DNA of 64,000 nucleotides, taken from Streptomyces sp. NBC_00620 (lineage in GTDB: Bacteria > Actinomycetota > Actinomycetes > Streptomycetales > Streptomycetaceae). Of this stretch, positions 12,597-31,380 are shown one piece after another (the first letter of the stretch is position 1; every line of letters starts with the position of its first letter). The translations under genes and the position numbers were made by a program. The notes beneath the pieces were generated by a model that saw nothing but the letters and a program-made list of their open reading frames with translations, ran no database searches and was not told the DNA's origin. The stretch is from contig NZ_JAPENY010000002.1 of NCBI RefSeq assembly GCF_026341825.1, forward strand, positions 992,001-1,056,000, given 5' to 3'.

Positions 12597-12709
12597 TTTT
12601 TTCGCCCCCTCCGCCCCTACCCTTCCCGTCTTTCTGGGGCTCTGCCCCAGGCCCCGCCAGGGGGCGCTGCCCCCTGGACCCCCGCTCCTCAAACGCCGGA
12701 GGGGCTAAT
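12597..12709. repeat. Dispersed intergenic repeat, copy A
   Basis: The block carries CGCCCCCTCCGCCCCTACCC (12603-12622), two small hairpins (GGGGCTCTGCCCC and GGGGGCGCTGCCCCC) and the module GCTCCTCAAACGCCGGAGG. The same modules in the same order recur at 44786-44862, with an inverted partial copy at 44899-45000. The right end overlaps the 3' end of the allophanate hydrolase gene and supplies its last codons and stop. It probably ends transcription from both sides. Confidence 0.8.
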
Positions 12710-14362
12710 AGAGCGCAGGTATGCGCGCCAGCCTCCGTGTGTCGTGATGTCCTCGGCTCCTTCGAGTGCGGACGGTTCGCAGAGGAAGCCGGGGACGTGA
12801 CTGCCGTCGGTGAGTTCGACGCGGCCCAGGGTCATCGGGCGGGGGAGCTCGGCGAGTAGGCGTCCTAGGCCCTCGGCGGGGAGTCGCCATACTTCGGCCT
12901 CGATGGCGGCGCCGGGGTCTTCCGTGCCGACGTGGACCAGGCCCGGCTTGGGCGGTGTGGTGGACAGGGCGTGCAGGCGGTAGACGGGTGCCGTGGTTGT
13001 CGTACGTTCCAGTTCCGCGCCCAGGGAGAGGAGCTGGGGGTTGAGCGGCTGGCCGGACAGGTGTGCGCCAAGCACCGCGATCCGGAGCTGCGGCTGCAGC
13101 AGGCCCGCGATCCGGGCGAGGCGTTCGTCGGTGAACGCCGGGCCGATCAGCATCACGCCGAAGGGCAGGCCGTCCACCATGCCCGCGGGGACGGCTACCG
13201 CGGCCAGGTCGAAGAGGTTCGTGGAGTTGGTGAAGCGGCCCAGGCGGGCGTTGGCGCCCAGTGGGTCGGCGGCGACCTCGGCGAGGGTGGGGTGGCCGGG
13301 GGCCGTCGGCAGCAACAGGGCGTCCGCGTCGCCGAGTTGGGCGAGGGCGCGGGTGCGGAGGTCCGCAAGGCGGTCCTGGTCGGCGTACAACTGGTGGGCC
13401 GGGATGTCCCGGGCCCGGGTGATGATCCCGGCGACGGTCGGGTCGAGCCCCTCACCGCCCTCAGTGATCAACTTGTCGACAAAGCTCCCCACGGCTGTGT
13501 AGCGCTCGGCGACGAACGCGCCCTCGTAGAGCATCGCCGCGGCCTCGGTGAACGGGGTGAGGTCGAGGGTGCGCAACTCGGCGCCCGCCGCGGTGAGTTG
13601 CGCCACGGCCGCTTCGTACGCCGCCGCCCAGCCCTTGTCCAGCTCTCCGAGCTGTTCGGGTGCGGCGACGGCGATGCGCCATGGGCCGGGCGTCCGCTGG
13701 GGGAGTGCCGGGAGGTCGCGTCCCGAGGGGGAGGTCATGTACGCGAGGGCCTGCTCGGCCTCCGGGAGCGTACGGGCGAAGACGGTCACGCAGTCGAGGG
13801 AGGCGCAGGCGGGGACGACGCCGGTCGTCGGCACCAGGCCGCGGGTCGGCTTGAGGCCGACGATGCCGTTGAAGGCGGCGGGGACGCGGCCCGAGCCTGC
13901 GGTGTCCGTGCCGAGGGCGAGGTCGACGATTCCCAGGGCTACGGCGACGGCCGATCCGGAGCTCGAGCCGCCGCTGATTCTGGCCGGGTCGTAGGCGTTG
14001 CGTACGGCGCCGTGGGGGGAGCGGGTGCCGACCAGGCCTGTGGCGAACTGGTCCAGGTTCGTGGTGCCGAGGACGATCGCGCCGGCGGCTCGGAGGCGGG
14101 CGACTGCGGGCGCGTCGCCTTCTGGGGTGTACGCGTATGCCGGGCAGCCGGCGGTGGTCTTGAGGCCTGCCACGTCGATGTTGCCCTTCGCGGCGAGGAG
14201 CTTGCCTGCGAGGGGGAGGTGCTCGCCTGCGGCGACGCGTTCGTCGATGGTCCTCGCCTCTTGGTCGACCTCCGCCTGGGGGCGGAGGTCGATCCAGAGC
14301 TCGGGGCGGTCGGTGGCCTCGATGCGGGCGTATGCCCTCTGGACTCGGGTGACGGCTGACAT
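12689..14362 (-). CDS. atzF: Allophanate hydrolase (amidase family)
   Basis: A 557-residue enzyme that hydrolyses allophanate to ammonia and CO2, the last step of urea-carboxylase or guanidine-carboxylase routes. The amidase-signature triad can be located: Lys59 in LLAAKGNID, a cis-serine in SGGSSSGSAVA (130-140), and the nucleophile Ser157 in GTDTAGSGRVPA. The C-terminal ~120 residues form the extra domain typical of allophanate hydrolases. Start: ATG at 14362 after AGGAG; in-frame codons upstream run into a hairpin. The last four codons and the stop (SPSGV*) lie in the dispersed repeat, so the repeat has apparently set the length of the C-terminus. Confidence 0.94.
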   Translation of the reverse strand: MSAVTRVQRAYARIEATDRPELWIDLRPQAEVDQEARTIDERVAAGEHLPLAGKLLAAKGNIDVAGLKTTAGCPAYAYTPEGDAPAVARLRAAGAIVLGTTNLDQFATGLVGTRSPHGAVRNAYDPARISGGSSSGSAVAVALGIVDLALGTDTAGSGRVPAAFNGIVGLKPTRGLVPTTGVVPACASLDCVTVFARTLPEAEQALAYMTSPSGRDLPALPQRTPGPWRIAVAAPEQLGELDKGWAAAYEAAVAQLTAAGAELRTLDLTPFTEAAAMLYEGAFVAERYTAVGSFVDKLITEGGEGLDPTVAGIITRARDIPAHQLYADQDRLADLRTRALAQLGDADALLLPTAPGHPTLAEVAADPLGANARLGRFTNSTNLFDLAAVAVPAGMVDGLPFGVMLIGPAFTDERLARIAGLLQPQLRIAVLGAHLSGQPLNPQLLSLGAELERTTTTAPVYRLHALSTTPPKPGLVHVGTEDPGAAIEAEVWRLPAEGLGRLLAELPRPMTLGRVELTDGSHVPGFLCEPSALEGAEDITTHGGWRAYLRSISPSGV

Positions 14363-14409
14363 CGGTGCTCCTTGGCTGGGGTCTCGTGCTCGACTGCGGG
14401 CCGGTGGGT

Positions 14410-14456
14410 GGTGTGTGCCCACCCGTTCCGCCCTGCGGAACGCCTGCCCACACACC
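14410..14456. terminator. Hairpin between carboxylase and allophanate hydrolase genes
   Basis: GTTCCGC (14425-14431) pairs with GCGGAAC (14435-14441) across a 3-nt loop, and GGTGTGTG (14410-14417) pairs with CACACACC (14449-14456) outside it. Inside an operon this could reduce rather than stop transcription, or stabilise the 3' end of the upstream message. Confidence 0.55.
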
Positions 14457-14470
14457 GCGCCATGGGGACG

Positions 14471-17400
14471 TCAGGTCACCGGCGCCAGCACTATCAGTGC
14501 TGTCCCCGCCTCCACCTGGTCCCCCGGTTTTGCGAGAATCTCGGTCACCACGCCGTTCATCGGGGCGGGGACCCTGGACTCCATCTTCATGGCCTCCAGG
14601 GCCAGGAGGGGCTGGCCCCGGGTCACCTTGTCGCCGGGGCGGACGTTCAGCTGCCAGACCGAGGCGGCGAATTCGGCCTCTATCAGGCGGCCGCCCTCGG
14701 GGACGGTCACCTCGGCGGGGGGAGCCGCGGGGGCCGACACGGACTCCGCCCGGGTGAACTCGCCCGCTGCTTCCCACGCGTCCCGCTCCGCGGAGAACGC
14801 GCCGCCCTGCCGGACCCGGAACTCCGCGATGGAGCCGGCGTTCTCGGCGAGGAAGGACTCGTACCCGGCGAGGGAGAACTCGCCCTCCTCGATCCGGGGG
14901 ACGAAGCGGCCGGAGATGATGTCGGCGCGCAGGTCGAGGAGTTCGTCGGGTTCGACGGGGTACCACTTGACGCGGTCGAAGAAGCGCAGCAGCCAGGGCG
15001 AGCCCGGCTCGAACGCGCCGCGTTGCTGCCAGGGCGACCACACCTGGGTCGTACGGCCGACGAACTGGTAGCCGCCTGGACCCTCCATGCCGTAGATGCA
15101 GAGGTAGGCGCCGCCGATGCCGACCGAGTTCTCGGCGGTCCAGGTGCGCGCCGGGTTGTACTTGGTGGTGACCAGGCGGTGGCGCGGGTCCAGCGGTGTC
15201 GCCACCGGCGCGCCCAAGTAGACGTCGCCGAGGCCCAGTACGAGGTACTCCGCGTCGAAGACCGTCCGGTACACGTCGTCCACCGAGTCGAGGCCGTTGA
15301 CGCGGCGGATGAACTCGATGTTCCAGGGGCACCAGGGCGCGTCGTCGCGGACGCCCGCCATGTAGCGGGCGATCGCCTCACGGGTGGCCGGGTCGTCCCA
15401 GGAGAGGGGGAGGTGGACGGTGCGGGAGGGGACGACGAGTTGGTCGCTCGGTGGGAGCGTCGCCACGATCTGCCGTACGGCCGCGAGGAGTTCGCGCTGC
15501 GGGAGCCGCCGCGGATCCGTCTGGATCTGCAGGGAACGGATGCCCGGGGTGAGGTCCGTGACCCCGTCCAGTGCGGCGCCCGCCACCGCCTCCATCAGCG
15601 CGTGCACCCGCATGCGCAGGGCCAGGTCCAGCTGCATGGGACCGAATTCGACCAGCAGGTTGTCGTCGCCGCTGCGCCGGTACGTCACGTCGCCGTCCCG
15701 GGCGAGTACGCCGCTGTCGACGATCGCGGCCCGCGGCGAGCCGTCGTCGGCGACCGGCGTGAAGCGGACCGTGTCACCGGGGCGCAGCTGCCCGAGCTTC
15801 CAGCGCTCCGAGCTGACGACCGTCGCGGGGCAGACGAAGCCGCCGAGCGAGGGACCGTCCGGGCCGAGCAGCACCGGCATGTCGCCGGTGTAGTCGACGG
15901 CACCCACCGAGTAGGGCGTGTCGTGGATGTTGGACGGGTGCAGCCCCGCCTCGCCGCCGTCCTTGCGAGCCCAGCGGGGCTTGGGACCGACCAGCCGTAC
16001 GCCCGTGCGCGCCGAGTTGAAGTGGACCTTCCAGTCGGCGGCGTAGAACTCGTGGATGTCCTCCTCGGTGAAGAACTCCGGTGCGGCATGCGGGCCTTCG
16101 AGCGCGCCGATGTGCCAGCGCGCCCCGAAGACCGGTCGGTCGGCAGCTGCCACCGCGGTGCCCGGGACCACCGCGCCCCCGTGCAGCACATCTCCCGTCC
16201 GCAGCGTCCGGCCACCGTGCCCGCCGAACCGGCCAAGGGTGAAGGTGGACGCGCTGCCCAGGAACGCGGGCACGTCCAGGCCGCCGCCCGCGAAGAGCAC
16301 GTACGTGCGCAGGCCGTGCTGGGTGGGAGCGCCGACCTCCAGGACGGACCCCGCCGGCACCGTGACCGGCTCCCACTGCGCGGCCGCCGTGCCGTCCACG
16401 GTGACCGCCGCCGGAGCACCCGTCACGCAGACGGTCGTGGCGTGCGTGAAGCGCAGGGCCGGTCCCTGAAGGGTGCACTCCAGACCGGGTGCCCCTTCGT
16501 GGTTGCCGAGGGCCCGGTTGCCGAGCCGGAAGGACAGGTCGTCCATCGGGCCGCACGGCGGCACCCCGACCTGCCAGTAGCCGGTGCGGCCGGGCCAGTC
16601 CTGGACGGTGGTGAGCGTGCCGCCCGAGACGACCTCGACGCGCGGTGTCGGATCGGAGACGGCGGCGAGTGTCGCCGTCGAATGCGTCGCGGCCCGGAAG
16701 GAGCTGTCCGACAGTGCCGCGCGCACCAGCCCGAGGTTCGTCTCGATACCGTCGACGCGGGTCCTGGCCAGCGCCTCGTCGAGCCGTTCCAGCGCATGGG
16801 CGCGGTCCGAGCCGTAGGCGATGACCTTCGCGAGCATGGGGTCGTACGAGGTCGTGACCTCCGTCCCCGTCTCCACCCAGCCGTCGACCCGGACCCCGCC
16901 GGGGAACTCGACGCGCGTCAACAGGCCTGCGCTGGGCCGGTGTTCGCGCGAGGGATCCTCGGCGTAAACCCGTGCCTCGACGGCATGACCGCGGGGCGCC
17001 CCCGGGTCCCGTACGACATCGGACTCGCCGCGAGCCAGCCGCAGCATCCAGGCGACGAGGTCGACTCCGTAGATCTCCTCGGTGACCGGATGCTCCACCT
17101 GGAGACGGGTGTTGACCTCCAGGAAGTACGCCTCCTGGCGGGCGGCGTCGTACACGAACTCGACGGTTCCGGCCGAGCGGTAGCCGACCGACGCGCACAA
17201 GTCGCGTGCCGCCGACGCGAGTTGCTCGCGTACGGGGGAGGGGAGCCCGGGCGCGGGAGCCTCTTCCAGCACCTTCTGATTGCGACGCTGGAGCGAGCAG
17301 TCGCGGTCGCCGAAGGTGACCACGCGGCCCCGGCCGTCGCCGAAGACCTGTACCTCCACATGGCGGGCCCGCTCCACCAGCCGTTCCAGGAAGACCCCGG

Positions 17401-17983
17401 CCGAGGAGAATGAGGCAGCGGCGACGCGCTGCACGCTCTCCCAGGCCTCGGTCAGTTCATCGGCTGAGCGACATGCCGACATACCGATGCCACCGCCACC
17501 GCCGGTGGCCTTGAGCATCACGGGATAGCCGATGCGGTCGGCTTCGAGCAGGGCTTCAGCGAGGTCGGAGAGCAGTCCTGTGCCCGGTGCCAGGGGCACT
17601 CCGGCCGCCTGAGCCGCCGCCCGCGCCGTGTGCTTCGCCCCGAACAGCTCCAGCTGCTCCGGCGTCGGCCCCACGAACACGATCCCCGCCTCCTCGCAGC
17701 GCCGCGCGAAGTCCGCGTCCTCGGAGAGGAAGCCGTACCCGGGGTGGATCGCCCCGGCGCCGGTCTCCTTCGCCGCCTTGAGGACGAGGTCGGCGTCGAG
17801 GTACGACTCCTTGGCGGGCGCGGGTCCGAGCCGTACCGCCTCGTCGGCCAGCCGTACGTGCGGTGCCGAGCGGTCCGGGTCGGAGTACACCGCCACCGTA
17901 CGCAGGCCGAGTTCGCGGGCCGTCCGGATGATCCGGACCGCGATCTCGCCCCGGTTGGCGACGAGCAGCGTGTCGAAGCTCAT
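14471..17983 (-). CDS. Biotin-dependent urea carboxylase (possibly guanidine carboxylase)
   Basis: A 1170-residue multidomain enzyme. Residues 1-450 are a biotin carboxylase (starts MSFDTLLVANRGEIAVRIIR; ATP-grasp loop KATGGGGGIGMS). Residues 470-1050 carry the KipI/KipA-like (AHS1/AHS2) carboxyltransferase with PGRTGYWQVGVPPCGPMDDL. The C-terminus is a biotinyl domain with EAMKM, the biotinylated lysine near 1133. It carboxylates urea, or in the guanidine pathway guanidine, at the expense of ATP. Start: ATG at 17983, overlapping the DUF1989 gene by ATGA. A longer in-frame reading up to 18598 would run through that gene and is rejected. DUF1989 neighbours favour the guanidine variant, which has often been mis-named urea carboxylase. 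Confidence 0.92.
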   Translation of the reverse strand: MSFDTLLVANRGEIAVRIIRTARELGLRTVAVYSDPDRSAPHVRLADEAVRLGPAPAKESYLDADLVLKAAKETGAGAIHPGYGFLSEDADFARRCEEAGIVFVGPTPEQLELFGAKHTARAAAQAAGVPLAPGTGLLSDLAEALLEADRIGYPVMLKATGGGGGIGMSACRSADELTEAWESVQRVAAASFSSAGVFLERLVERARHVEVQVFGDGRGRVVTFGDRDCSLQRRNQKVLEEAPAPGLPSPVREQLASAARDLCASVGYRSAGTVEFVYDAARQEAYFLEVNTRLQVEHPVTEEIYGVDLVAWMLRLARGESDVVRDPGAPRGHAVEARVYAEDPSREHRPSAGLLTRVEFPGGVRVDGWVETGTEVTTSYDPMLAKVIAYGSDRAHALERLDEALARTRVDGIETNLGLVRAALSDSSFRAATHSTATLAAVSDPTPRVEVVSGGTLTTVQDWPGRTGYWQVGVPPCGPMDDLSFRLGNRALGNHEGAPGLECTLQGPALRFTHATTVCVTGAPAAVTVDGTAAAQWEPVTVPAGSVLEVGAPTQHGLRTYVLFAGGGLDVPAFLGSASTFTLGRFGGHGGRTLRTGDVLHGGAVVPGTAVAAADRPVFGARWHIGALEGPHAAPEFFTEEDIHEFYAADWKVHFNSARTGVRLVGPKPRWARKDGGEAGLHPSNIHDTPYSVGAVDYTGDMPVLLGPDGPSLGGFVCPATVVSSERWKLGQLRPGDTVRFTPVADDGSPRAAIVDSGVLARDGDVTYRRSGDDNLLVEFGPMQLDLALRMRVHALMEAVAGAALDGVTDLTPGIRSLQIQTDPRRLPQRELLAAVRQIVATLPPSDQLVVPSRTVHLPLSWDDPATREAIARYMAGVRDDAPWCPWNIEFIRRVNGLDSVDDVYRTVFDAEYLVLGLGDVYLGAPVATPLDPRHRLVTTKYNPARTWTAENSVGIGGAYLCIYGMEGPGGYQFVGRTTQVWSPWQQRGAFEPGSPWLLRFFDRVKWYPVEPDELLDLRADIISGRFVPRIEEGEFSLAGYESFLAENAGSIAEFRVRQGGAFSAERDAWEAAGEFTRAESVSAPAAPPAEVTVPEGGRLIEAEFAASVWQLNVRPGDKVTRGQPLLALEAMKMESRVPAPMNGVVTEILAKPGDQVEAGTALIVLAPVT

Positions 17984-18579
17984 TCCGGAGCCCCAAGGGT
18001 CATCTGGACCGCGGTCGGCTCGAAGCCGTTGCAAGGGTTGTTGATCTGGGGGCAGTTGGAGACGAGTACGAGTACGTCGCGCTCGGCGCGCAAGGTCAGC
18101 TTCAGCCCCGGGGCCGAGATGCCGTCGACGATGCCGAGGGTGCCGTCCTTCTCGACCGGCACGTTCATGTACCAGTTGATGTTCGAGACCAGATCCCGCT
18201 TGCCCAGCCCGTACTTGGCTCCCTCCGCGAGGAAGTTGTCCACGCATGCGTGCTGCGACCAGGTGTGATGCCCGTACCGGAGCGTGTTCGACTCCTTGGA
18301 GCAGGCGCCGCCGACCGTGTCGTGCCTGCCGACCTCGTCCTCGACGACCGTCATCAGCGGCGTGTGCTCGTTGGACATCAGCACACTGCCGGTGGTGAGG
18401 AAGAGGTTGCCCTGCGCGTGGATCGTGTCCGGCGCGCTGTACCGGACAGCCGTGTCGTGGGCGTCGTACACCAGGAAGTCGACGGCCTGGTTGCCGTGCA
18501 GGTCGGTGATGGTGAGCGTGCCGCCTTCGGGCACGACGGCGGACCAGGCGGCGCGGGCCGGTACTTCCACGGTCTTCAT
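17980..18579 (-). CDS. DUF1989 urea amidolyase-associated protein (UAAP2 type)
   Basis: A 199-residue DUF1989 protein beginning MKTVEVPARAAWSAVVPEGG. Blocks such as GNQAVDFLVYDA, GRHDTVGGACSKESNTLRYG and NINWYMNVPVEKDG, with conserved Cys and His residues, characterise the family. Two such proteins always accompany this carboxylase type. In bacteria growing on guanidine the pair has been described as a carboxyguanidine deiminase that turns carboxyguanidine into allophanate; older annotation calls them urea amidolyase-associated proteins. Both ends overlap the neighbouring genes by 4 bp, so subunits and carboxylase should be made together. Confidence 0.88.
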   Translation of the reverse strand: MKTVEVPARAAWSAVVPEGGTLTITDLHGNQAVDFLVYDAHDTAVRYSAPDTIHAQGNLFLTTGSVLMSNEHTPLMTVVEDEVGRHDTVGGACSKESNTLRYGHHTWSQHACVDNFLAEGAKYGLGKRDLVSNINWYMNVPVEKDGTLGIVDGISAPGLKLTLRAERDVLVLVSNCPQINNPCNGFEPTAVQMTLGAPE

Positions 18580-19400
18580 ATGAGCCCCCTCGCGGCAAGG
18601 AATTCGGCGGTGTTCAGGAAGGCGCGACGGCCCTCGGGCGTGGCTTCCCACAGCGGATCGCCCGCCTTGGTCGCCTCCGAGCGCCAGGCGAGCACCTCCA
18701 GCGGGGAACTGACGTACTCCGGACGGGGATCGGCCGGATGCGGCACGTTCGCGATCAGCACGGTGACGTCCTGCTCGGCGCGCAGGGTCACGCTGCCGCC
18801 CGGACCGGCCGAGCCGGTGAAGTCGAGGGAGCCGTCGTCGCGTACCGCCACGCCCTGGAAGAAGGAGAGCGAGGGCGGCAGATCGCGCGGTTCGAGTCCG
18901 TTCTTGGCCGCGGCCAGCTTGAAGAGCTCACGCCCGGCCGGGGACGCGGACTGCGGCGTCCCGTCCCCGTACCGCGCGGTATTGCGTACGAGCGTGGAGG
19001 TGCCGCACAGCGCGTCGTGCCGCCCGGAGGTGTCGGCGATCAGCGAGGCGAGCACGCGGCCCTGGTCGGACAGGAGGAGCTGACCCTCGCCCAGGTACGC
19101 GTTCCACTGGACCTTGACCGTGTCCGCCACATTCAGGCGCTCCCACGGGCGCTCGGCGGCGTGCAGGAGCAGATGCGCGCAGGCGTCGCCGGTCAGGTCG
19201 GTGAGGCGCAGTTCGGTGCCGCGGGCCAGCACTCTGTGCGTGTAGTTGCCGCCGGCCACGGTCTCCGCCCACACCAGGTGGCCGGCCTCGCAGGGCGGCG
19301 CGGGCCAGCCGCTGGCCGGGACGACGGGCATGGCCTCGGCACGGGTCCCGTCCTGGGAGCGGGCGTGGGCGCGTGCTCCGTATGGGGTTGCTGTCGCCAT
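18576..19400 (-). CDS. DUF1989 urea amidolyase-associated protein (UAAP1 type)
   Basis: First gene of the operon, 274 residues. After a variable N-terminus the DUF1989 core repeats the pattern of its neighbour: LTDLTGDACAHLLLHAAE, TSGRHDALCGTSTLVRNTARYG and LSFFQGVAVRDDGS. The two proteins are clearly paralogous and likely form a heteromer. The ATG at 19400 has CCGGAGG before it. The promoter holds the palindromic operator at 19458-19477, 57 bp upstream. Confidence 0.88.
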   Translation of the reverse strand: MATATPYGARAHARSQDGTRAEAMPVVPASGWPAPPCEAGHLVWAETVAGGNYTHRVLARGTELRLTDLTGDACAHLLLHAAERPWERLNVADTVKVQWNAYLGEGQLLLSDQGRVLASLIADTSGRHDALCGTSTLVRNTARYGDGTPQSASPAGRELFKLAAAKNGLEPRDLPPSLSFFQGVAVRDDGSLDFTGSAGPGGSVTLRAEQDVTVLIANVPHPADPRPEYVSSPLEVLAWRSEATKAGDPLWEATPEGRRAFLNTAEFLAARGLI

Positions 19401-19457
19401 CGCGGGTCCTCCGGCTCCGGGGTTTCGGTCGAGCGACGTTGTTTCCGTCGCTCACCA

Positions 19458-19477
19458 TTTCTGTCGCTCGACAGAAA
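19458..19477. promoter_or_regulatory. Palindromic operator of the carboxylase operon and divergent TetR gene
   Basis: TTTCTGTC-GCTC-GACAGAAA is a perfect 8-bp inverted repeat with a 4-bp centre, placed between the divergent UAAP1 and TetR genes. It is followed by TTAGGAG. Read from the minus strand, CCTAATTTCTGTC suggests that TAATTT is the -10 hexamer and the operator overlaps it. GTCGCTC also recurs at 19447-19453, and its inverse at 19431-19437. An almost identical site precedes the APC permease at 31304-31323. The natural candidate binder is the adjacent TetR protein. Confidence 0.75.
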
Positions 19478-19578
19478 TTAGGAGCGGAGCGGGTCGACGC
19501 CGTGTCTCGTGCGTTGCCGTCCGGTTACCGATCCCTCACGGTGATCGCCGCGTGACCCGGTGTGCGAGGATCGAACAC

Positions 19579-20205
19579 ATGGGAACCGGTGGTGGACGAC
19601 GGGTCGGCCGGCCGCGTGCGGCTCAGCGGCCGGACAGTGGTCTGTCGCCGCGCGACGAACTGCTCGACGCCGCCGCCGACTTGTTCACGACCCGTGGATA
19701 CGCCGCCACGACCACCCGGGCCGTCGCCGAGCGGGCGGGCATGCGGCAGGCGTCGATGTACCACTACGTCTCCGGCAAGGAGGAGCTGCTCGCCGAGCTC
19801 CTGGAGTCCACGGTCACGCCCTCGCTCACCCTCGCCCGGGAACTCCTCGCCGACGACGCGACCCCGGCCGAGGACCGGCTGTGGGAGCTGTGCCGCACGG
19901 ACGTCGAGCTGCTCTGCGGCGGCCCGCACAACCTGGGCGGTCTCTATCTGCTGCCCGAGGTGCGCGCCGAGGGCTTCGCAGGCTTCCATGCCGTACGGGC
20001 CGAACTGAAGGACACCTACCGGCAGTTGCTCGCCGCGACGGCCGCGGGGGGCGCGCTCGCCAAGAGTGAGCTGGATCTGCGGACGGATCTGCTGTTCGGC
20101 CTCATCGAGGGTGTGATCCTCGTGCACCGCTCCGATCCGGAACGGCCGGTGTCCGCGTTCGCCGAGGCCACCGCGGACGCGGCGCTGCGCATCGCCGGTA
20201 TCTGA
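19579..20205 (+). CDS. TetR-family transcriptional regulator
   Basis: A 208-residue TetR protein. After a basic tail, residues ~28-75 form the DNA-binding domain (LLDAAADLFTTRGYAATTTR, VAERAGMRQASMYHYVSGKE). The rest is an all-helical ligand domain. The ATG at 19579 follows GAGGATCG; the frame is open further upstream but crosses the operator. It is divergent from the carboxylase operon with one palindrome between them, the classic layout for an autoregulated local repressor. It probably also controls the permease 10 kb downstream. The likely effector is the substrate or a pathway intermediate. Confidence 0.9.
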   Translation: MGTGGGRRVGRPRAAQRPDSGLSPRDELLDAAADLFTTRGYAATTTRAVAERAGMRQASMYHYVSGKEELLAELLESTVTPSLTLARELLADDATPAEDRLWELCRTDVELLCGGPHNLGGLYLLPEVRAEGFAGFHAVRAELKDTYRQLLAATAAGGALAKSELDLRTDLLFGLIEGVILVHRSDPERPVSAFAEATADAALRIAGI

Positions 20206-20499
20206 CCAACGGGCCCGCTCGGGACGGTTTTCGCATGCCCGTACGCCGTCACGCACCGTGTGCGAATGAAGCCTCAGCGTACAAATGGAGCCGAGGGTAC
20301 TCCTGTCGCGTGGGCGATTTCAGGTGCTTGCTGAATATGACACGGCGTTGATCCGGTCGGACTAAGCTCGCCCGCAGCGCACCGAGTTGAGATGTATTCG
20401 TGCGCTTGTTCCCAAAAGTTCCGAAGATTCAGTTTGAACCATGCCGTTTCCCCCACAAACTTCCCCGATCCCCCAGTCGACTTGTCTCAGAGGGCATAC
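20206..20499. other. Leader/promoter interval before the conservon
   Basis: About 290 bp without a credible gene, clearly less GC-rich than its flanks. I see no clean -10/-35 pair or terminator. The conservon promoter should be here. Short frames that exist on both strands lack coding character. Confidence 0.5.
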
Positions 20500-22098
20500 A
20501 TGGTGAGTGTTCAATCGCCTCCCGGTGGCCGTGAACTTCCCTACGCGCGCGTGCTGTTGCTGCCGGCCATAGTGATGGCCGCGGCGACCGGAGCCGCCGT
20601 CGCCATGGTGACGGACCCGGCCCGGGCCGCCGTCGGCTGGTGCGGAGCCATCGCGACGCTCCTGGTCATCGTGATCGGCGCCGAAGCCGTACGGCGTGGC
20701 CGCGTCGCCCGCGATCTGCGCGCCGATCTGGTGCACCGCACCGCATATCTGGAACAGCGCATCGCCGCCCACGATCAGGAGATCCGGCACTTCTCCCGCA
20801 AGGTCCTGCCCGTAGGGCTCGACCGACTGCACGCCGGCGCATCCCCCTCGGAGGTGATCCGCACCCTCGGCGAGACCGATCCGGATCTCGGCGAACTCCC
20901 CGAGCCGCAGCGCGACTTGCTGGAGACCGTGCTCAACAACATCGACCGCGAGGAATCGATGCGCGACTCCGCGCAGCGAGCCTTCGTCAACATCGCCCGC
21001 CGTGTCCAGGCGATCGTCCACCAGCAGAACAAGGAACTGCGCGAGATGGAGGAGGACCACGGGCGCAACCCCGAGGTCTTCGACGACCTGCTGCGCATCG
21101 ACCACGGCACCGCGCTGATCGGCCGCCTCGCCGACTCCATCGCGGTGCTCGGCGGTGGCCGTCCCGGACGTCAGTGGCCCGAGCCCGTACCGCTGTTCAG
21201 CGTGTTGCGCGGCGCGATGTCGCGCATCCTGGAGTACCGCCGCATCGAGCTGCACAACGTCGTCGAGGTCGCCGTCAACGGCGTGTCCGTCGAACCGATC
21301 ATCCACGCCGTCGCCGAACTCCTCGACAACGCCACGCGCTACTCGCCGCCGCACACCAGGGTGCACGTCACCGCCATCGAGGTGCAGACCGGCATCGCCA
21401 TCGAGATCGAGGACGGCGGCGTCAGCCTGAGCGACGAGGCCCGCGGAAAGGCCGAGGATCTGCTCCGGCAGGCCGCCCTCGGTGTCGACTTCGACGCCCT
21501 CGGCGCGAACCCGCGGCTCGGCATGGCCGTCGTCGGCCGGCTCTCGAAGATGTACAACATGCAGGTCTCGCTCAGGCAGTCCGCGTACGGCGGTGTCCGC
21601 GCCGTCCTCGTCGCGCCCCGGGACATGCTCACCACCGACGACGCCCCCGGTCTCGCGCACGGCGTCGGCATCGCCTCCGTCCCGACCATGGACACGGGCG
21701 GGGTCGAGGGCCCCAACCGCAAGCCCAAGAAGCGCCGCCCGACCACCGGCCCCCGGCTCACCACTCCCAACGGTGACTCCCAGGAGGACGACGTCCCCCA
21801 GGTCACCGAGTGGACGGCCAACGGCCTGCCGCAGCGCCGCAGCCGCGTCAAGGTCTCCTTCCACCAGCGGGCCGCCGATGCCCGCGCGGATGCCGAGGCG
21901 GCCGAGCGCGCCGCTGCGGCGGCCGCCGCCACGCCCTCGTGGGCGGCACCCGTCCCGGAGGAGAAGGAGCCCGAACCCGGCCTGTGGGTCGAGGCGTTCA
22001 TGGAAGGGCTCAAGGGCGACCCGGACCCGGCCGCCGCAACCGGCACGACGATCAAGCCGGCCCCTGTCGAGGCCGACGACGAAGGGGACCCCAAGTGA
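20500..22098 (+). CDS. cvnA9: Conservon protein CvnA: membrane histidine-kinase-like sensor
   Basis: A 532-residue protein with two N-terminal membrane helices (about residues 13-34 and 40-58), a helical region, and a HATPase_c domain with the N-box HAVAELLDNATRYSPP (near 270-285) and the later GMAVVGRLSKMYNMQV block. The tail of ~150 residues is charged and Ala/Pro-rich. In Streptomyces conservons CvnA is a sensor that recruits CvnB, C and D to the membrane, a system compared to eukaryotic G-protein coupled receptors. Position after the HelY helicase and before the pseudouridine synthase fits cvn9 (rarA of S. griseus). ATG at 20500 follows AGAGGG; GTG at 20503 is an alternative. Confidence 0.9.
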   Translation: MVSVQSPPGGRELPYARVLLLPAIVMAAATGAAVAMVTDPARAAVGWCGAIATLLVIVIGAEAVRRGRVARDLRADLVHRTAYLEQRIAAHDQEIRHFSRKVLPVGLDRLHAGASPSEVIRTLGETDPDLGELPEPQRDLLETVLNNIDREESMRDSAQRAFVNIARRVQAIVHQQNKELREMEEDHGRNPEVFDDLLRIDHGTALIGRLADSIAVLGGGRPGRQWPEPVPLFSVLRGAMSRILEYRRIELHNVVEVAVNGVSVEPIIHAVAELLDNATRYSPPHTRVHVTAIEVQTGIAIEIEDGGVSLSDEARGKAEDLLRQAALGVDFDALGANPRLGMAVVGRLSKMYNMQVSLRQSAYGGVRAVLVAPRDMLTTDDAPGLAHGVGIASVPTMDTGGVEGPNRKPKKRRPTTGPRLTTPNGDSQEDDVPQVTEWTANGLPQRRSRVKVSFHQRAADARADAEAAERAAAAAAATPSWAAPVPEEKEPEPGLWVEAFMEGLKGDPDPAAATGTTIKPAPVEADDEGDPK

Positions 22099-22502
22099 TC
22101 CAGCAGCGAGCCAACTTCGACTGGATGCTCAAGGAACTCGCCGACGGGGTACCCGGCGTCCAGCAGATCGTGGTGCTCTCCGCCGACGGGCTGCGCATCG
22201 CGCGGTACGGCGGCGACCCGGACGCCGCCGACCGAGTCGCCGCCGCCTGCGCGGGCCTGCAGAGCCTGGCCGGAGCCGTCGCCAGCGAGATCCCCAACAG
22301 CGACGGCCGGATGCGCATGGTCATCATCGAGATCAACGGCGGCTACTTCTACCTGATGTCGGCGGGACCCAACGCCTATCTCGCGGTCCTCGCCAACCAG
22401 ACCGCGGAGCCCGGACTGATGAGCAACCGCATGCGCGACCTCGTCGTCCGGATCGGAGCCCATCTCACGAGTCCGCCGCGGCGCAACGGGCAGACCGTAT
22501 GA
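22095..22502 (+). CDS. cvnB9: Conservon protein CvnB: roadblock/LC7-domain protein
   Basis: A 135-residue roadblock/LC7 protein (FDWMLKELADGVPGVQQIVV, LSADGLRIARYGG). Such folds act as regulators of small GTPases, and in conservons CvnB binds CvnA and CvnD. The GTG at 22095 overlaps the cvnA stop (GTGA), and its own stop overlaps the ATG of cvnC, so the genes are translationally coupled. Confidence 0.93.
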   Translation: MIQQRANFDWMLKELADGVPGVQQIVVLSADGLRIARYGGDPDAADRVAAACAGLQSLAGAVASEIPNSDGRMRMVIIEINGGYFYLMSAGPNAYLAVLANQTAEPGLMSNRMRDLVVRIGAHLTSPPRRNGQTV

Positions 22503-22972
22503 CTTCTCCGCAACGCCGACGGCGCTACCCCAAGGAAGAACCCGCGGGACCCCCCATCGAGGGAATCGAGGGACTTCTCAACGAGGACCCCTCCCAAGAG
22601 GGACCCTCGAACGAGGGATCTCCGAAAGACGGCCAGGACCGGAAGAACCCCGAGCGCCTGTATCTGCTCACAGGCGGGGCCGAGGGCGGCGACCGGGCCG
22701 CCCTCGACCTGGTCACGTTAATCGTGGCGCGCGCCGAGGCGCCGCCGTCCAACGCCCAGCCGGAGAAGTCGGCGCTGGTCCGGCTCTGTACGGCTCCACT
22801 GTCCGTGGCCGAGATCTCGGCCTATCTCAGTCTGCCGGTCAGCGTGGTGACCGTGCTGCTCACCGAGCTGCTGGCGGCCGAACTGGTGCAGGCGCGCGCC
22901 CCGATCGTCCGCTCGGCGCTCCCTGAACGTTCCCTCCTCGAAGCGGTGATGCATGGACTTCAAAAGCTCTGA
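22499..22972 (+). CDS. cvnC9: Conservon protein CvnC: DUF742 protein
   Basis: A 157-residue DUF742 protein. The conserved C-terminal part has RLYLLTGGAE, LVRLCTAPLSVAEISAYLSL and LLTELLAAELVQ, which resembles a winged helix-turn-helix. The N-terminal 50 residues are acidic and repetitive (LLNEDPSQEGPSNEGSPKDG). In conservons it interacts with CvnB and CvnD. It overlaps cvnB by 4 bp and cvnD by 20 bp. Confidence 0.9.
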   Translation: MTSPQRRRRYPKEEPAGPPIEGIEGLLNEDPSQEGPSNEGSPKDGQDRKNPERLYLLTGGAEGGDRAALDLVTLIVARAEAPPSNAQPEKSALVRLCTAPLSVAEISAYLSLPVSVVTVLLTELLAAELVQARAPIVRSALPERSLLEAVMHGLQKL

Positions 22973-23567
22973 CACCATCACGGGCCCTCGCGCCGAGGAC
23001 CATCTGCCGCACACGATCCAGGCAGCCGTGAAGATCGTCATCGTCGGGGGCTTCGGAGTCGGCAAGACGACCATGGTGGGCTCCGTCAGCGAGATCAAGC
23101 CGCTGACCACGGAGGAGACCATGACGCAGGCCGGGATCGGAGTCGACGACAACTACGGCTCCGAGACCAAGACGGCCACCACCGTCGCCATGGACTTCGG
23201 CAGGATCTCGATCACCGAACAGCTGGTGCTCTACCTCTTCGGCACACCGGGCCAGGAACGCTTCTGGTTCCTCTGGAACGGCCTCTTCGAGGGAGCACTC
23301 GGCGCGGTCGTCCTGATCGACACCCGCCGCCTGGAGGTCAGCTTCGACGTGATCGGCCGCCTGGAGGAGCGCGGGGTGCCGTTCGTCGTCGCCATAAACG
23401 ACTTCCCGGACGCGCCCCGCTATCCGGTCGAGGAACTGCGGACCGCGCTCGACCTCTCCGAGGACATCCCGATCATCAAGTGCGACGCGCGCCGCAGGGC
23501 CTCCAGCCGGGATGTCCTGATGACGCTGATGCGCTTCCTGCACTCGCTGGCCATGACACGCACCTGA
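22953..23567 (+). CDS. cvnD9: Conservon protein CvnD: Ras-like small GTPase
   Basis: A 204-residue GTPase (DUF/ATP-GTP-binding family). The P-loop GGFGVGKTT lies at residues 32-40, the switch II equivalent is LFGTPGQERFWFLWNGL, and INDFPD takes the place of the NKxD base-recognition motif. CvnD is the G-protein-like element of the conservon and cycles on the CvnA/B/C platform. The start lies 20 bp inside cvnC, an unusually long overlap, but the conserved N-terminus needs it. Confidence 0.93.
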   Translation: MDFKSSDTITGPRAEDHLPHTIQAAVKIVIVGGFGVGKTTMVGSVSEIKPLTTEETMTQAGIGVDDNYGSETKTATTVAMDFGRISITEQLVLYLFGTPGQERFWFLWNGLFEGALGAVVLIDTRRLEVSFDVIGRLEERGVPFVVAINDFPDAPRYPVEELRTALDLSEDIPIIKCDARRRASSRDVLMTLMRFLHSLAMTRT

Positions 23568-23648
23568 GCCCCCCGTACGCGTCGAATCAGTACGCAGCTA
23601 CGCCAACTCCCAAGACACCGGATCCACTTCAGTTTCGGAGCGATCACC

Positions 23649-25133
23649 GTGACGCCTGAATCCCACTCCCAGACCGGTACGGACGACACCACGCTCGGTC
23701 CGCCGCCCGGCTGCCCCGCCCACGGCCTCGGTCCCGGCGGACTGCGCCGGCTGTACGGCCCCGACGCCGAGGATCTGGGAGCCGTGTACGAGAAACTCCG
23801 GGCCGAGCACGGCGTGGTGGCTCCCGCCCTGCTCCACGAGGACGTGCCGATCTGGGTGGTGCTCGGTCACGGCGAGAACATGCACATGGTGCGCACTCCC
23901 TCGCAGTACTCCCGTGACACCCAGTTGTGGACCGCCCTGCAGGACGGCACGATCAAGCCCGATCACCCGCTCATGCCGATCGTCGCCTGGCAGCCCATCT
24001 GCTGCCACGCGGAGGGCGACGAGCACCTGCGACTGCGCGGGGCGGTCACCGGCGCGATGACGACCATCGACCACCGGGGCCTCCGCCGCCACATCAACCG
24101 CGCGACCCAGCACCTCGTCAACAAGTTCTGCGAGGAGGGCAGGGCCGAACTGGTCGGCCAGTTCGCAGAGCACCTGCCGATGGCGGTGATGTGCGAGATC
24201 CTCGGCATGCCGGAGGAGTACAACGACCGGATCGTGCAGGCCGCCCGGGACATGCTCAAGGGCACCGAGACCGCCATCGCCAGCAACGCGTACCTCATGG
24301 ACGTCCTGATGCGGCTCACCGTCCGCCGCCGGGCCGAACCCAGGGACGACTTCACCAGCCACCTGATCAACCACCCGGCGAGGCTCACCGACGAGGAGGT
24401 CGGCCAGCACTTGCGCGTCGTCATGATCGTCTCGTACGAGGCCACCGCCAATCTGCTCGCCAACGTACTGCGAGTGGTACTCACCGACCCGGGGTTCCGC
24501 GCCCGGCTCAACGGCGGCCAGATGACGGTGCCCCAGGCGGTCGAGCAGTCCCTGTGGGACGAGCCGCCGTTCAGCGCCATCCTCCCCTACGTCGCCAAGC
24601 AGGAGACCGAGCTGGGCGGCCAGCGCATCCGCAAGGGCGAGGGCCTCATTTTCGGCATCGCGCCGGGCAACGTGGACCCGTGTGTCCGCCCCGACCTCAA
24701 GGCCAACATGCAGGGCAACCGCTCCCACCTCGCCTTCGGCGGCGGCCCCCACGAGTGCCCGGGGCAGGACATCGGCCGCGCCATCGCCGACGTGGGCGTC
24801 GACGCGCTGCTGACCCGCCTCCCGGACGTTCAACTCGCGTGCGAGGAGGACGAGCTGCGCTGGCGGGCGTCCATCTCGAACCGGCACCTGGTGGAACTGC
24901 CGGTGAAGTTCGCGCCGAAGCCCCAGCAGGACGTCATGCAGCGGCCCTCCATCAACCCGCTGCCGCCGCAGCGCGCGAACAACTGGCAGGTGAGCACGCC
25001 ACAGCCGCAGTCGCAGGCACAGCCACAGTCCACAGCTCCGGAGCCCGCCGCTCCGACGTCGGCGGCGACGCCCGAACCGGCCCGTCGGCCGGGCGTGTTC
25101 CGGCGCATCCTGCGCTGGTGGCGCGGCAACTGA
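23649..25133 (+). CDS. cvnE9: Conservon cytochrome P450 of the ExxR-less CYP157 type
   Basis: A 494-residue P450-fold protein closing the conservon (rarE-like). The haem-thiolate loop FGGGPHECPGQD is intact with Cys370, so haem should bind. The K-helix ExxR, nearly invariant in P450s, is absent: the position reads EQSLW at 299-303. The I-helix (IVSYEATANLL) lacks the usual AGxxT. This matches the CYP157 family, known for lacking ExxR. The C-terminal ~75 residues are a Pro/Gln-rich linker ending in a basic, tryptophan-containing tail (RRILRWWRGN) that could touch the membrane. Substrate and activity are unknown; a regulatory or structural role in the conservon complex is possible. GTG at 23649 after GGAGCG. 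Confidence 0.92.
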   Translation: MTPESHSQTGTDDTTLGPPPGCPAHGLGPGGLRRLYGPDAEDLGAVYEKLRAEHGVVAPALLHEDVPIWVVLGHGENMHMVRTPSQYSRDTQLWTALQDGTIKPDHPLMPIVAWQPICCHAEGDEHLRLRGAVTGAMTTIDHRGLRRHINRATQHLVNKFCEEGRAELVGQFAEHLPMAVMCEILGMPEEYNDRIVQAARDMLKGTETAIASNAYLMDVLMRLTVRRRAEPRDDFTSHLINHPARLTDEEVGQHLRVVMIVSYEATANLLANVLRVVLTDPGFRARLNGGQMTVPQAVEQSLWDEPPFSAILPYVAKQETELGGQRIRKGEGLIFGIAPGNVDPCVRPDLKANMQGNRSHLAFGGGPHECPGQDIGRAIADVGVDALLTRLPDVQLACEEDELRWRASISNRHLVELPVKFAPKPQQDVMQRPSINPLPPQRANNWQVSTPQPQSQAQPQSTAPEPAAPTSAATPEPARRPGVFRRILRWWRGN

Positions 25134-25151
25134 GCCGACCGGACGCTGGGG

Positions 25152-26096
25152 CTACCCGGCCCACTCCTCGTACGACGACCAGGCCTGCAGCACGCGCGGG
25201 CTGGCGAACCGGTGCTCGTGCCCCGTGACCGGATCGGTGAACTCCAGGACCCGCGCCAGCAGTTGGAGCGGGCGCCGGAAGTCACCGTCCGCCACGGGGC
25301 CGGTCACCACGGGATAGAGGGGATCGCCGAGGATCGGCACCCCCAACGCGTTCATGTGCACCCGCAGTTGGTGTGTCTGCCCGGTGCGGGGTCTCAGCCG
25401 GTAGCGGGCCAGGCCGTCGTCCCGCTGTTCCAGCAACTCCACCTCGCTGACGGCATTGGGCTCGCCCTCGACCTCGCGCGCCGCCATGACCCCGCGCTCC
25501 TTCACGATCCGGCTGCGCATGGTGCGCGGCAGGGCGAGCGCCGGATCGTACGGGGCGACGGCCTCGTATTCCTTGGTGATGAGCCGGTCGCGGAACAGCG
25601 ACTGGTACGCGCCGCGCTCCGCCGGGCGCACGGTGAACAGGACCAGCCCGGCGGTGAGCCGGTCCAGGCGGTGGGCCGCGCCCAGTGTGGGAAGGCCCAG
25701 CTGCCGGCGCAGCCGCGCAAGCGCGGTCTCCGTGACATGGCTGCCGCGCGGTGTCGTGGCCAGGAAATGAGGCTTGTCGGCGACGACGATGTGCTCGTCG
25801 CGGTACAGGACGTCCAGCGCGAACGGCACCGGCACCTCGTACGGCAACTCCCGGTGGAACCACACGAACATGCCCGGCACATACGTCATGTCCCGCGGCA
25901 CGGCACGCCCGTCGGCGTCCACGATCAGCCCTGCGTCCAGCATCCCGTCGATCACCCCCGCCCCGGCCGCGAGCCGCTCCACCAGATGATCACGCACGGT
26001 TGCCCACGAGGCCCCCTGCGGCAGCCGCACCCGCACCGGATCGACCCCGTCGCGCTGCGGCAGGGGGGAGGGCGGGGGCGGAGTACGTCGTCTCAT
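25152..26096 (-). CDS. RluA-family pseudouridine synthase
   Basis: A 314-residue RluA-type enzyme that isomerises uridine to pseudouridine in rRNA or tRNA. The catalytic block AAHRLDRLTAGLVLF contains the invariant aspartate, and RPRTGQTHQLRVHMNALGVP is the second family signature. An N-terminal S4-like region (VRVRLPQGASWATVRDHLVE) precedes it. The start is uncertain: the ATG at 26096 (MRRRTPPPP) has no good SD, but codons upstream lose conservation. It converges on the conservon P450 with only 18 bp between stops. Confidence 0.9.
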   Translation of the reverse strand: MRRRTPPPPSPLPQRDGVDPVRVRLPQGASWATVRDHLVERLAAGAGVIDGMLDAGLIVDADGRAVPRDMTYVPGMFVWFHRELPYEVPVPFALDVLYRDEHIVVADKPHFLATTPRGSHVTETALARLRRQLGLPTLGAAHRLDRLTAGLVLFTVRPAERGAYQSLFRDRLITKEYEAVAPYDPALALPRTMRSRIVKERGVMAAREVEGEPNAVSEVELLEQRDDGLARYRLRPRTGQTHQLRVHMNALGVPILGDPLYPVVTGPVADGDFRRPLQLLARVLEFTDPVTGHEHRFASPRVLQAWSSYEEWAG

Positions 26097-27627: not shown

Positions 27628-27672
27628 TCAGCAAGGAATACGGGCTGGATCGACAAGAAGGGGCAACACGCC

Positions 27673-29698: not shown

Positions 29699-31267
29699 TC
29701 AACGGCTGGATTCTGCGGGCACTTCCAGCGGTGCCCCTTCTTCCTCGGCAACCTGCCCTCGATGTGCGCTCTGCCACCGGTACAGGCACCCCAGTGCCAC
29801 CGTCACCAGCAAGAACAACACCGTGAACCACTGGAAGTACCAGTGCCCGCCCGCCGGGTCGTACACCGCCGCGCGGGGCCAGGCGAGGTTGACGGTCATG
29901 AAGAGGCCGTAGACGAGGGCGATCGCGTTGACCGGGATGCCCCAGCGGCCGAGGGAGAAGAGGGGGCGGCCCTCCTCGTCGACGCCGTCCGGGCCGGGGA
30001 ACTGTCCGCGCAGGCGTCGCACCAGCAGGGGCCCGGTGACCATCGCGTACGCCAGGTACAGCATCACGATGCAGGTGGTGCCGATGGCCAGGAAGGCTTC
30101 CGGGGAGGCGAAGTTGAGGAGTAGGACGGCTGCCGCGAGGACGCCGACGACCAGGGCCGGGGCGTTCGGCATACCCGTGCGCGGGTTGACCTTGGCGAGG
30201 CGGGCGGAGAAGGGGAGCCGGCCGTCGCGGGCCATGGAGAAGAGCATCCGGGAGGCGGCCGTCTGGATCGCCAGGGTCGCCACCGCGATGGCCACCACCA
30301 CGTCGGCGAGCAGGGCGCGGCCGACACCGTCGCCGAGGGTGCTGGTCAGCACGTAACTCAGGCCCTCGATCCCGAGTCGTCCGTCCGTGAGGCTGGGGGC
30401 GGCGAGCAGTCCGCCGAGGACGATCAGACCGCCGAGCAGGCCCGCCGCGCCGAGCGCGGTGAGGATCGTACGGGGTGCGGTACGGCGTGGATCGCGGGTC
30501 TCCTCGCTCATCTCGCCCGCGCTGTCGAAGCCGATCATCACGTACGCCGCCATGAAGGAGCCCACCATCAGCGCCCCGAAGAGGCCGGTGCTGCCCTCGG
30601 CGGTGTGGAAGGTGATGCCGGGGGAGCGCTCGGAGTGCGTGAACAGGAGCACGATGATCAAGGCGGCGCCGATGATCTCGGCGGTCACACCGACCCGGTT
30701 GATCACGGACATCACCCGGTTGTCGAGGACGTTCACCAGCGTGGTCAGGACGAGCAGGATCACGCCGAAGACCGCCGCGTTGGCCGCACCGTCGGCACTG
30801 GTGGGCGTCGGATCGCTGCCCACCAGCTGGAAGCCCGACCAGATCGCCGGCAGCACCATCTGCAGCGCGAGCGCCGCCGCCGCGACCACCACGATCTGCC
30901 CGATCACCATGATCCAGCCGGCGAACCAGCCGAAGGAGAGGTTCGAGAGCCGCGAGGACCACTGGTAGATCGCGCCCGAGATCGGATAGCGCGCGGCCAG
31001 CTCCGCGAAGCACGCGGCGACCATCAACTGGCCCACGAGGACGGCCGGCCAGGTCCAGAAGAAGACGGGGCCGCCGAACGCGTACCCGAAGGCGAAGAAC
31101 TGGAAGACGGTCGTCAGTACGGAGATGAAGGAGAACCCGGCGGCGAAAGAGGCGTACCGGCCGAGGCTGCGGTGCAGCTCCTGGCGGTAGCCGAACTCGG
31201 CGAGGGAGCCGTCGCCGGGGGACTCGGGAGGGTCGGGGCGGACGTCGGAGGGGGCGGTGGTCGTCAC
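29699..31267 (-). CDS. APC-superfamily amino acid/nitrogen-compound permease
   Basis: A 522-residue membrane protein with about twelve spans and APC-superfamily landmarks (AGFSFISVLTTVFQFFAFGY in helix 1; GFDSAGEMSEETRDPRR after helix 6). APC transporters import amino acids, choline, GABA or small amines. I start it at GTG 31267, preceded by GAAGG/AGGTG; upstream codons run into the operator. The palindrome at 31304-31323 is nearly identical to that of the carboxylase operon, so this permease probably imports the substrate of that pathway (urea, guanidine or a related amine). Confidence 0.88.
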   Translation of the reverse strand: MTTTAPSDVRPDPPESPGDGSLAEFGYRQELHRSLGRYASFAAGFSFISVLTTVFQFFAFGYAFGGPVFFWTWPAVLVGQLMVAACFAELAARYPISGAIYQWSSRLSNLSFGWFAGWIMVIGQIVVVAAAALALQMVLPAIWSGFQLVGSDPTPTSADGAANAAVFGVILLVLTTLVNVLDNRVMSVINRVGVTAEIIGAALIIVLLFTHSERSPGITFHTAEGSTGLFGALMVGSFMAAYVMIGFDSAGEMSEETRDPRRTAPRTILTALGAAGLLGGLIVLGGLLAAPSLTDGRLGIEGLSYVLTSTLGDGVGRALLADVVVAIAVATLAIQTAASRMLFSMARDGRLPFSARLAKVNPRTGMPNAPALVVGVLAAAVLLLNFASPEAFLAIGTTCIVMLYLAYAMVTGPLLVRRLRGQFPGPDGVDEEGRPLFSLGRWGIPVNAIALVYGLFMTVNLAWPRAAVYDPAGGHWYFQWFTVLFLLVTVALGCLYRWQSAHRGQVAEEEGAPLEVPAESSR

Positions 31268-31303: not shown

Positions 31304-31323
31304 TTCCTGTCGGGTGACAGAAA
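31304..31323. promoter_or_regulatory. Second copy of the carboxylase-operon operator, upstream of the APC permease
   Basis: TTCCTGTC-GGGT-GACAGAAA differs from the site at 19458-19477 by one base in the arms and two in the centre, and shares the flank AAATTAGG. On the permease strand it reads CCTAATTTCTGTC, as in the carboxylase promoter, again placing a TAATTT -10 next to the operator. It is 36 bp upstream of the permease GTG. Confidence 0.72.
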
Positions 31324-31380
31324 TTAGGGAGGGCCTGTTTCGCTCGTGTGACGTGGCCATGTCTGGGGCGGGCCTAAGTT

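Follow-up and report, generated by a model that had tools for sequence, protein, structure and literature searches.

An operon annotated for urea breakdown in Streptomyces sp. NBC_00620 most likely assimilates guanidine and appears to be switched by AmtR and GlnR

Introduction

Does an operon annotated for urea breakdown in a Streptomyces act on urea or on guanidine, and what switches it? The question is raised by four genes on the minus strand (12689..19400) of a 64,000-nucleotide stretch of Streptomyces sp. NBC_00620 (assembly GCF_026341825.1, contig NZ_JAPENY010000002.1, positions 992,001 to 1,056,000), hereafter the window, to which all coordinates below refer. The genes encode two DUF1989 proteins, a biotin-dependent carboxylase and an allophanate hydrolase. 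A preliminary description of the locus had proposed that the operon may use guanidine, with a TetR repressor in place of a guanidine riboswitch.

Aspartate at the position of K. lactis 1330 marks guanidine as against urea carboxylases, and aspartate at 1584 is required (PMC11410670, where the rule is credited to Schneider et al. 2020); a review likewise gives aspartate for guanidine carboxylases and asparagine for urea carboxylases (PMC12186494). Papers are cited here by PubMed Central number. From these residues and the genes that accompany the carboxylase among its relatives, we conclude that the operon most likely assimilates guanidine. Judged from its promoter sequence, it appears to be switched by AmtR and GlnR and not by a guanidine-sensing RNA. 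Beyond the preliminary description, we identify the TetR protein as an AmtR homologue, a GlnR-type box in the promoter, and a second likely target, the gene of an APC-type permease.

The operon and its carboxylase

Each of the four operon proteins exceeds the curated cut-off of its NCBIfam model. They are UAAP1 (18576..19400; TIGR03425, 316.5 bits, cut-off 205.95; PF09347), UAAP2 (17980..18579; TIGR03424, 326.4 bits, cut-off 284.7; PF09347), the carboxylase (14471..17983; TIGR02712, 1848.2 bits, cut-off 1303.85) and an AtzF-type allophanate hydrolase (12689..14362; TIGR02713, 701.5 bits, cut-off 511.05; PF01425 and PF21986 AH_C). UAAP2 is the predicted carboxyguanidine deiminase subunit and UAAP1 its predicted partner, both of the DUF1989 family. 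In UAAP2, cysteines C93, C112, C176 and C183 each have a rounded conservation of 1.00 across 163 aligned rows, the window's own included. The carboxylase, a predicted guanidine carboxylase of 1170 residues, is full length, with biotin carboxylase (BC), carboxyltransferase (CT) and biotin carboxyl carrier protein (BCCP) parts.

The stop codon of UAAP1 and the start codon of UAAP2 share 4 bp (ATGA), as do the UAAP2 stop and the carboxylase start, so the two DUF1989 genes are indeed locked to the carboxylase as first described; the hydrolase gene does not overlap and is separated from the carboxylase by 108 bp. Among 158 related loci above score thresholds (both locus sets described below pooled, some contigs entered twice), a 4-bp overlap of ATGA or GTGA in the right frame is kept at the UAAP1/UAAP2 junction in 139, at the UAAP2/carboxylase junction in 132 and at both in 116. 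The overlaps are therefore more than chance. Together with the scores for TIGR03424 and TIGR03425, they point to a predicted pair of the CgdA/CgdB type.

The solved structures nearest to the carboxylase are both from K. lactis, 3va7 (KLLA0E08119p) and 5i8i (urea amidolyase). In the HMMER alignment to 5i8i, which we judged unambiguous, Asn1330 of the K. lactis enzyme lies opposite Asp697 of the window protein (codon 15893..15895, minus strand), a position also read in the relatives. K. lactis Asp1584 falls opposite Asp920 (codon 15224..15226, minus strand) by hand count in the printed alignment, and this position too was scored in the relatives. The enzyme thus has both aspartates, beside an adjacent DUF1989 pair and an allophanate hydrolase within the same operon. 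The preliminary description had named a comparison of active-site residues with characterised guanidine and urea carboxylases as a check, and that comparison comes out on the guanidine side. The K. lactis enzyme is a homologous BC-CT-BCCP carboxylase but has Asn1330, and its carboxylase forms the second part of an 1829-residue chain (matched from residue 622), whereas here it is a stand-alone gene. Fungal urea amidolyase has a fused hydrolase and is not known to be accompanied by a DUF1989 pair.

The annotation itself implies a different pathway, in which urea would be converted to allophanate by the carboxylase, with the DUF1989 proteins in an accessory role. This agrees with the NCBIfam names (TIGR02712, TIGR03424/5 and TIGR03428) and with published work on AmtR that handles the operon as urea-related (PMC4222082). 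We consider it unlikely. Urea was rejected as the substrate because Asp, not Asn, occupies the 1330 position; a DUF1989 pair is present; the genome already has a urease (886.6 bits); and M. smegmatis, which has an AmtR-controlled operon, does not grow on urea (PMC4222082). The Asn clade, described below, points the same way. A different guanidino or amidine substrate, such as methylguanidine, likewise has little to recommend it over guanidine itself. In Vreelandella methylguanidine joins the same pathway once demethylated (PMC12508155), and creatine utilisation genes are under AmtR in Corynebacterium (PMC8864220). However, no demethylase or other extra enzyme lies between the operon genes, and their core set equals that of the characterised guanidine pathway (PMC12508155).

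Related loci

Of 296 genomes sampled across the class to which the window belongs, 35 have the carboxylase, as do 76 of 246 Streptomyces genomes, the latter count including a few partial or distant hits. The first set of 107 loci, drawn from these two samples, was typed for the specificity residue, the DUF1989 pair, AmtR, hydrolase and permease. For a second set the top 80 were kept out of at least 588 hits, so that distant and Asn types are under-sampled; the nearest named relatives are Streptomyces. The sets overlap (L056 and L162 seem, for example, to come from a single contig) and are not additive, and all counts are of loci, not of events.

At the 1330 equivalent the first set has 89 Asp, 10 Asn, 4 Met and 1 Leu, with the residue unread in three (L051, L091, L094). 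The pair accompanies 85 of the 89 Asp carboxylases; in the remaining four the contig is short or cut, L138 retaining one gene of the pair. An AmtR homologue (above 80 bits, within the locus) is present together with the pair in 83 Asp loci, and the pair stands without it in two. Neither pair nor AmtR occurs in any of the ten Asn rows, which include a partial hit (L093), a row cut at the 3' end (L049) and two Streptomyces loci (L089, L090). The second set divides in the same way: 73 of its 76 Asp loci have the pair and 68 have AmtR, the three without the pair having cut or masked flanks, and its four Asn loci have neither. Wherever flanks are readable, then, the pair is found with every Asp carboxylase and with no Asn carboxylase, as expected from the earlier statement that it goes with guanidine-type enzymes and is not needed by urea-type ones. 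L188, an Asp carboxylase seemingly without the pair, was rejected as a counterexample since its flank is masked, and the partial hits L092 (Leu, 188 bits) and L093 (Asn, 244 bits) were not treated as urea carboxylases.

In a tree of 52 rows, built with the specificity-residue column retained, the Asp (38) and Asn (12) rows fall on opposite sides of a branch (supports 92/93 and 99/95). The association of Asp with the pair agrees with the published rule and is no independent replication of it. Guanidine use by the operon, as first suggested, is thus supported by Asp697 and Asp920 and by the DUF1989 context among relatives, all of it sequence evidence.

Several relatives depart from this pattern. 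Four loci of the window's class (L050, L052, L053 and L054) have Met at the specificity position and a DUF1989 pair whose UAAP1 is very divergent (62-123 bits). In the 296-genome sample, with positions compared by eye, three of these four carry a guanidine-I riboswitch (L050, 81.6 bits; L052, 80.2; L053, 63.0, the last absent from the gathering-score list of a second scan). These Met-type carboxylases are likely guanidine enzymes that the published Asp rule would miss. In other classes of the phylum, L239 and L240 have Ile together with the pair, a hydrolase and a distantly related permease (174 bits); in L242 the residue is Ala and no pair was detected. L241 combines a full-length Asp carboxylase with the pair and a low-scoring AmtR match (81 bits).

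In other loci the carboxylase has no more than its carboxyltransferase part (about residues 430-1080 of the window protein): L041, L042, L047, L048, L071-L074, L192, L195 and others, of Mycobacteriaceae/Nocardiaceae type, and likewise L050 and L052. No biotin carboxylase or biotin carrier was hit within the fetched loci of these enzymes, which would have to draw both from another carboxylase. The Mycobacterium loci L203 and L208 are full length. One genome, Nocardiopsis coralli, has both types (L200 and L204), one an Asn carboxylase with neither pair nor AmtR, the other an Asp carboxylase with both, a natural side-by-side comparison of the two specificities.

The promoters and their regulators

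The TetR-family gene divergent from the operon (19579..20205, plus strand; PF00440) encodes an AmtR homologue. Its best match in the PDB is 5e57, "Transcription regulator AmtR" (E 2.5e-36), and the six top chains span E 2.5e-36 to 1.8e-30, with the next match at 3.5e-13. Three of the six are labelled AmtR (5e57, 5mqq, 6gy3) and three just TetR family regulator. The AmtR chains nearest to the window protein are presumably those of M. smegmatis and C. glutamicum.

Before UAAP1 lies the AmtR box ATTTCTGTCGAGCGACAGAAAT (19457..19478, minus strand), a 22-bp inverted repeat that is perfect outside its 2-bp centre. It matches the 22-bp AmtR consensus, TAtCTGTCa-n2-cGACAGATAT (PMC8864220), at the CTGTC-n4-GACAG core. 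A scan of the 9.56-Mb genome, which is in three contigs, allowing up to two mismatches gave four AmtR-type sites, two of them with zero or one mismatch; a control with the pattern written backwards gave none.

To view the promoter across relatives, loci were pooled from both sets where AmtR is divergent and scores above 150 bits and the core is perfect; 86 qualified and were stacked ungapped. Upstream of the box, the stack has the GlnR-type site GTGAG-n6-GTAAC-n6-GCAAC (19513..19539, minus strand) and a practically invariant TAATTT (19475..19480, minus strand), a putative -10 element that runs into the AmtR box. The pattern GTnAC-n6-GnAAC stands at -54 in 71 of the 86 loci; of 4300 random segments drawn from these loci, 64 contain it at any position. 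Downstream of the box there is little conservation, some of which would be hidden by spacing changes. Of the GlnR box forms tabulated in PMC10704036, that of M. smegmatis, t/gTAAC-n6-Gc/aAAC, matches the operon's GTAAC-n6-GCAAC best.

The second site with at most one mismatch, TTTCTGTCACCCGACAGGAA (31304..31323, minus strand; one mismatch), lies 36 bp before an APC-type permease gene (29699..31267, minus strand, GTG start chosen by eye; PF13520, TIGR03428). A GlnR-type box, GTCAC-n6-GAAAC (31337..31352, minus strand), was read by eye in front of the permease, at this single locus; it and the operon's box both fit the consensus gTnAc-n6-GaAAc (PMC10704036). By eye, the permease promoter also carries the same CCTAATTTCTGTC as the operon promoter. 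Under the pattern used, AmtR boxes with zero or one mismatch occur in the genome before the operon and before the permease only, and from this sequence evidence the permease is a likely second AmtR target. In comammox Nitrospira the guanidine importer is predicted to be an APC permease (PMC11410670), and we predict the same role for the permease of the window.

The box and its regulator recur with the operon. In the second set, a core with at most one mismatch lies near UAAP1, the permease or amtR in 65 of the 73 Asp loci with the pair. Among 246 Streptomyces genomes, AmtR (E to 1e-25) is found in 71 of the 73 counted as bearing the guanidine-type carboxylase versus 16 of the 173 others; the genomes are related, and the Fisher value overstates this evidence. 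The 73 are what is left of the 76 counted above once two genomes with Asn and one with a distant hit are set aside, and they include two with broken or partial carboxylase copies whose residue is unread (G481, G517). In the 16 operon-less genomes, no perfect core was found within 3.5 kb of amtR, and a one-mismatch core in two of them looks like chance. In L243, by eye, amtR adjoins what seems to be the helicase gene found next to the operon in the window; this suggests that there the operon was lost and amtR left behind.

What AmtR itself reports is a separate matter. It may simply relay general nitrogen status via GlnK, as in C. glutamicum, with no guanidine-specific control, and we put the chances of this at about even. 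For the C. glutamicum protein, GlnK-dependent release has been proposed and no small-molecule effector identified (PMC8864220). Against this, the GlnR-type boxes at both promoters would already supply nitrogen status, and under the pattern used the genome has just the two AmtR sites with zero or one mismatch noted above. In M. smegmatis, moreover, deletion of amtR raises expression of the operon while nitrogen control persists, to be lost on deletion of glnR (PMC4222082).

Upstream of amtR, at 20392-29016, the window holds, judged by eye, an apparent conservon-type cluster (a sensor-like protein, small proteins, a GTPase and a P450), followed by a terpene-cyclase-like gene and a second P450.

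Riboswitches, guanidine export and urease

A guanidine riboswitch is a usual, if not strictly defining, companion of guanidine carboxylases, and none was found at this operon. Across the whole window, a single Rfam family reached its gathering score, a Streptomyces RNA at 58905 that is unrelated. In the leader and the 108-bp internal gap, scans at E up to 10 returned hits below gathering and no guanidine family; those in the leader include an SAH riboswitch (13.9 bits, gathering 37). A known riboswitch in either place was rejected, and guanidine-I has no match at gathering score across the genome. These scans confirm the earlier view that no ykkC-type riboswitch lies upstream. The proposed exchange of riboswitch for TetR repressor fits the divergent regulator gene and the relatives alike. 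The gap (14363-14470) holds by eye a G+C-rich inverted repeat, GTTCCGC-n3-GCGGAAC, with no Rfam family at gathering.

Among the matches listed for the 296-genome sample, no guanidine-I or guanidine-III riboswitch stands at an Asp or Asn carboxylase locus, the scans having used stricter filters at which weak matches are lost. Guanidine-II and -IV were covered by Rfam scans of the window, L050, L052-L054, L081 and L239-L242. Rfam covers described families, which leaves room for an undescribed guanidine riboswitch within the leader. We find this very hard to credit: only 56 bp separate the AmtR box from the UAAP1 start codon, no guanidine family is among the leader hits, and the ungapped stack, within the limits given above, has almost no conservation downstream of the box.

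Elsewhere in the genome there is a guanidine-III riboswitch (38.6 bits, gathering 36; a second match, at 25.9, is below gathering). Immediately downstream of it is an SMR gene (109 residues), with SugE as its top model (125.9 bits, cut-off 126). With this riboswitch at the SMR gene and none known at the operon, guanidine appears to be sensed by RNA for export, while assimilation is controlled by proteins. With a urease and a riboswitch-controlled SMR gene also present, neither urea breakdown nor guanidine export is probably a task of this operon.

Discussion

Our preferred account is a regulon for guanidine import and assimilation, made up of the operon and the permease. The permease would import guanidinium, and the carboxylase would turn guanidine, ATP and bicarbonate into carboxyguanidine. 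The DUF1989 pair would convert this to allophanate and ammonia, and the hydrolase would then release two ammonia from allophanate. At both promoters, AmtR would act as a repressor that lies across the -10 region and the start site, and GlnR, just upstream, would activate under nitrogen shortage, which parallels the logic reported for M. smegmatis (PMC4222082).

Each half of this regulon resembles a known system. The Gca/CgdAB/AtzF pathway of Proteobacteria (P. syringae, Klebsiella, Raoultella, Vreelandella) has, as here, a carboxylase, a DUF1989-type carboxyguanidine deiminase and an allophanate hydrolase, and its carboxylases have Asp at 1330 by the published rule (PMC11410670). The operons described for it, however, have guanidine-I/II riboswitches and ABC importers. 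At the present locus no known riboswitch is found, the promoter boxes are of AmtR and GlnR type, and the permease is of the APC type. The comammox operon likewise places an APC permease beside guanidine genes, but mostly with a guanidinase instead of a carboxylase, and with a guanidine-I riboswitch (PMC11410670).

On the regulatory side, the S. avermitilis AmtR regulon (sav6697, sav6698, sav6701, sav6709) comprises, as here, carboxylase, amidase, divergent amtR and a permease elsewhere (PMC4222082); it is described there in terms of urea carboxylase and amidase genes, which we read as guanidine genes in the window. In M. smegmatis, msmeg_2184-2189 (a permease, two small reading frames, carboxylase and amidase) are under AmtR and GlnR, with amtR unlinked to the operon (PMC4222082) and not its divergent neighbour as here. 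The Mycobacterium/Mycolicibacterium loci of the second set other than M. smegmatis have Asp. For S. avermitilis, Chen et al. 2013 reportedly found that AmtR controls both units directly, along with two further sites. In the literature searched, we found no paper linking AmtR to guanidine assimilation; the regulon is known by its "urea" genes. The pathway and the regulon were each known already; it is the link between them that we did not find in that literature.

Several points weigh against this account. Because the Asp and Asn rows split at one branch, the association of Asp with the pair is, as judged from the tree, a single deep evolutionary event as opposed to many. Nor does the Asp rule hold everywhere: riboswitch-controlled relatives have Met, and others that have the pair have Ile. 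The permease scores 662.2 bits against its top NCBIfam model, TIGR03428 ("permease, urea carboxylase system"), short of the cut-off of 740.45. The AmtR core with at most one mismatch is missing from 8 of the 73 Asp loci with the pair in the second set. Of the first set, at least six loci with AmtR (L046, L047, L068, L071, L072 and L087) have no core near UAAP1. AmtR is present without the operon in 16 of the 246 Streptomyces genomes (L243-L258). The S. avermitilis GlnR box, GAAAC-n6-GTATC (PMC10704036), is unlike that of the operon, and the roles of the GlnR-type site and the -10 element are read from motif and conservation. In addition, our literature search returned no enzyme assay, guanidine growth or induction for this operon or a close relative.

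As a tentative extension, which we think possible but doubtful, AmtR, familiar as a general nitrogen repressor, may ancestrally have been the dedicated guanidine-assimilation repressor of Actinomycetes, sensing guanidine or an intermediate in place of a riboswitch and becoming global in Corynebacterium only. GlnR would then provide the nitrogen signal, so that GlnR and AmtR together would act as an AND gate. The signal of AmtR is a question worth testing.

If the operon does use guanidine, that would give the AmtR operon a substrate. In Mycobacterium and other Actinobacteria this operon has been treated as one of urea metabolism, and a 2013 study found it puzzling that M. smegmatis fails to grow on urea (PMC4222082). 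Guanidine use would then extend to many soil Actinomycetes, and a guanidine pathway would be ruled by proteins, not RNA, in a genome that owns a guanidine riboswitch.

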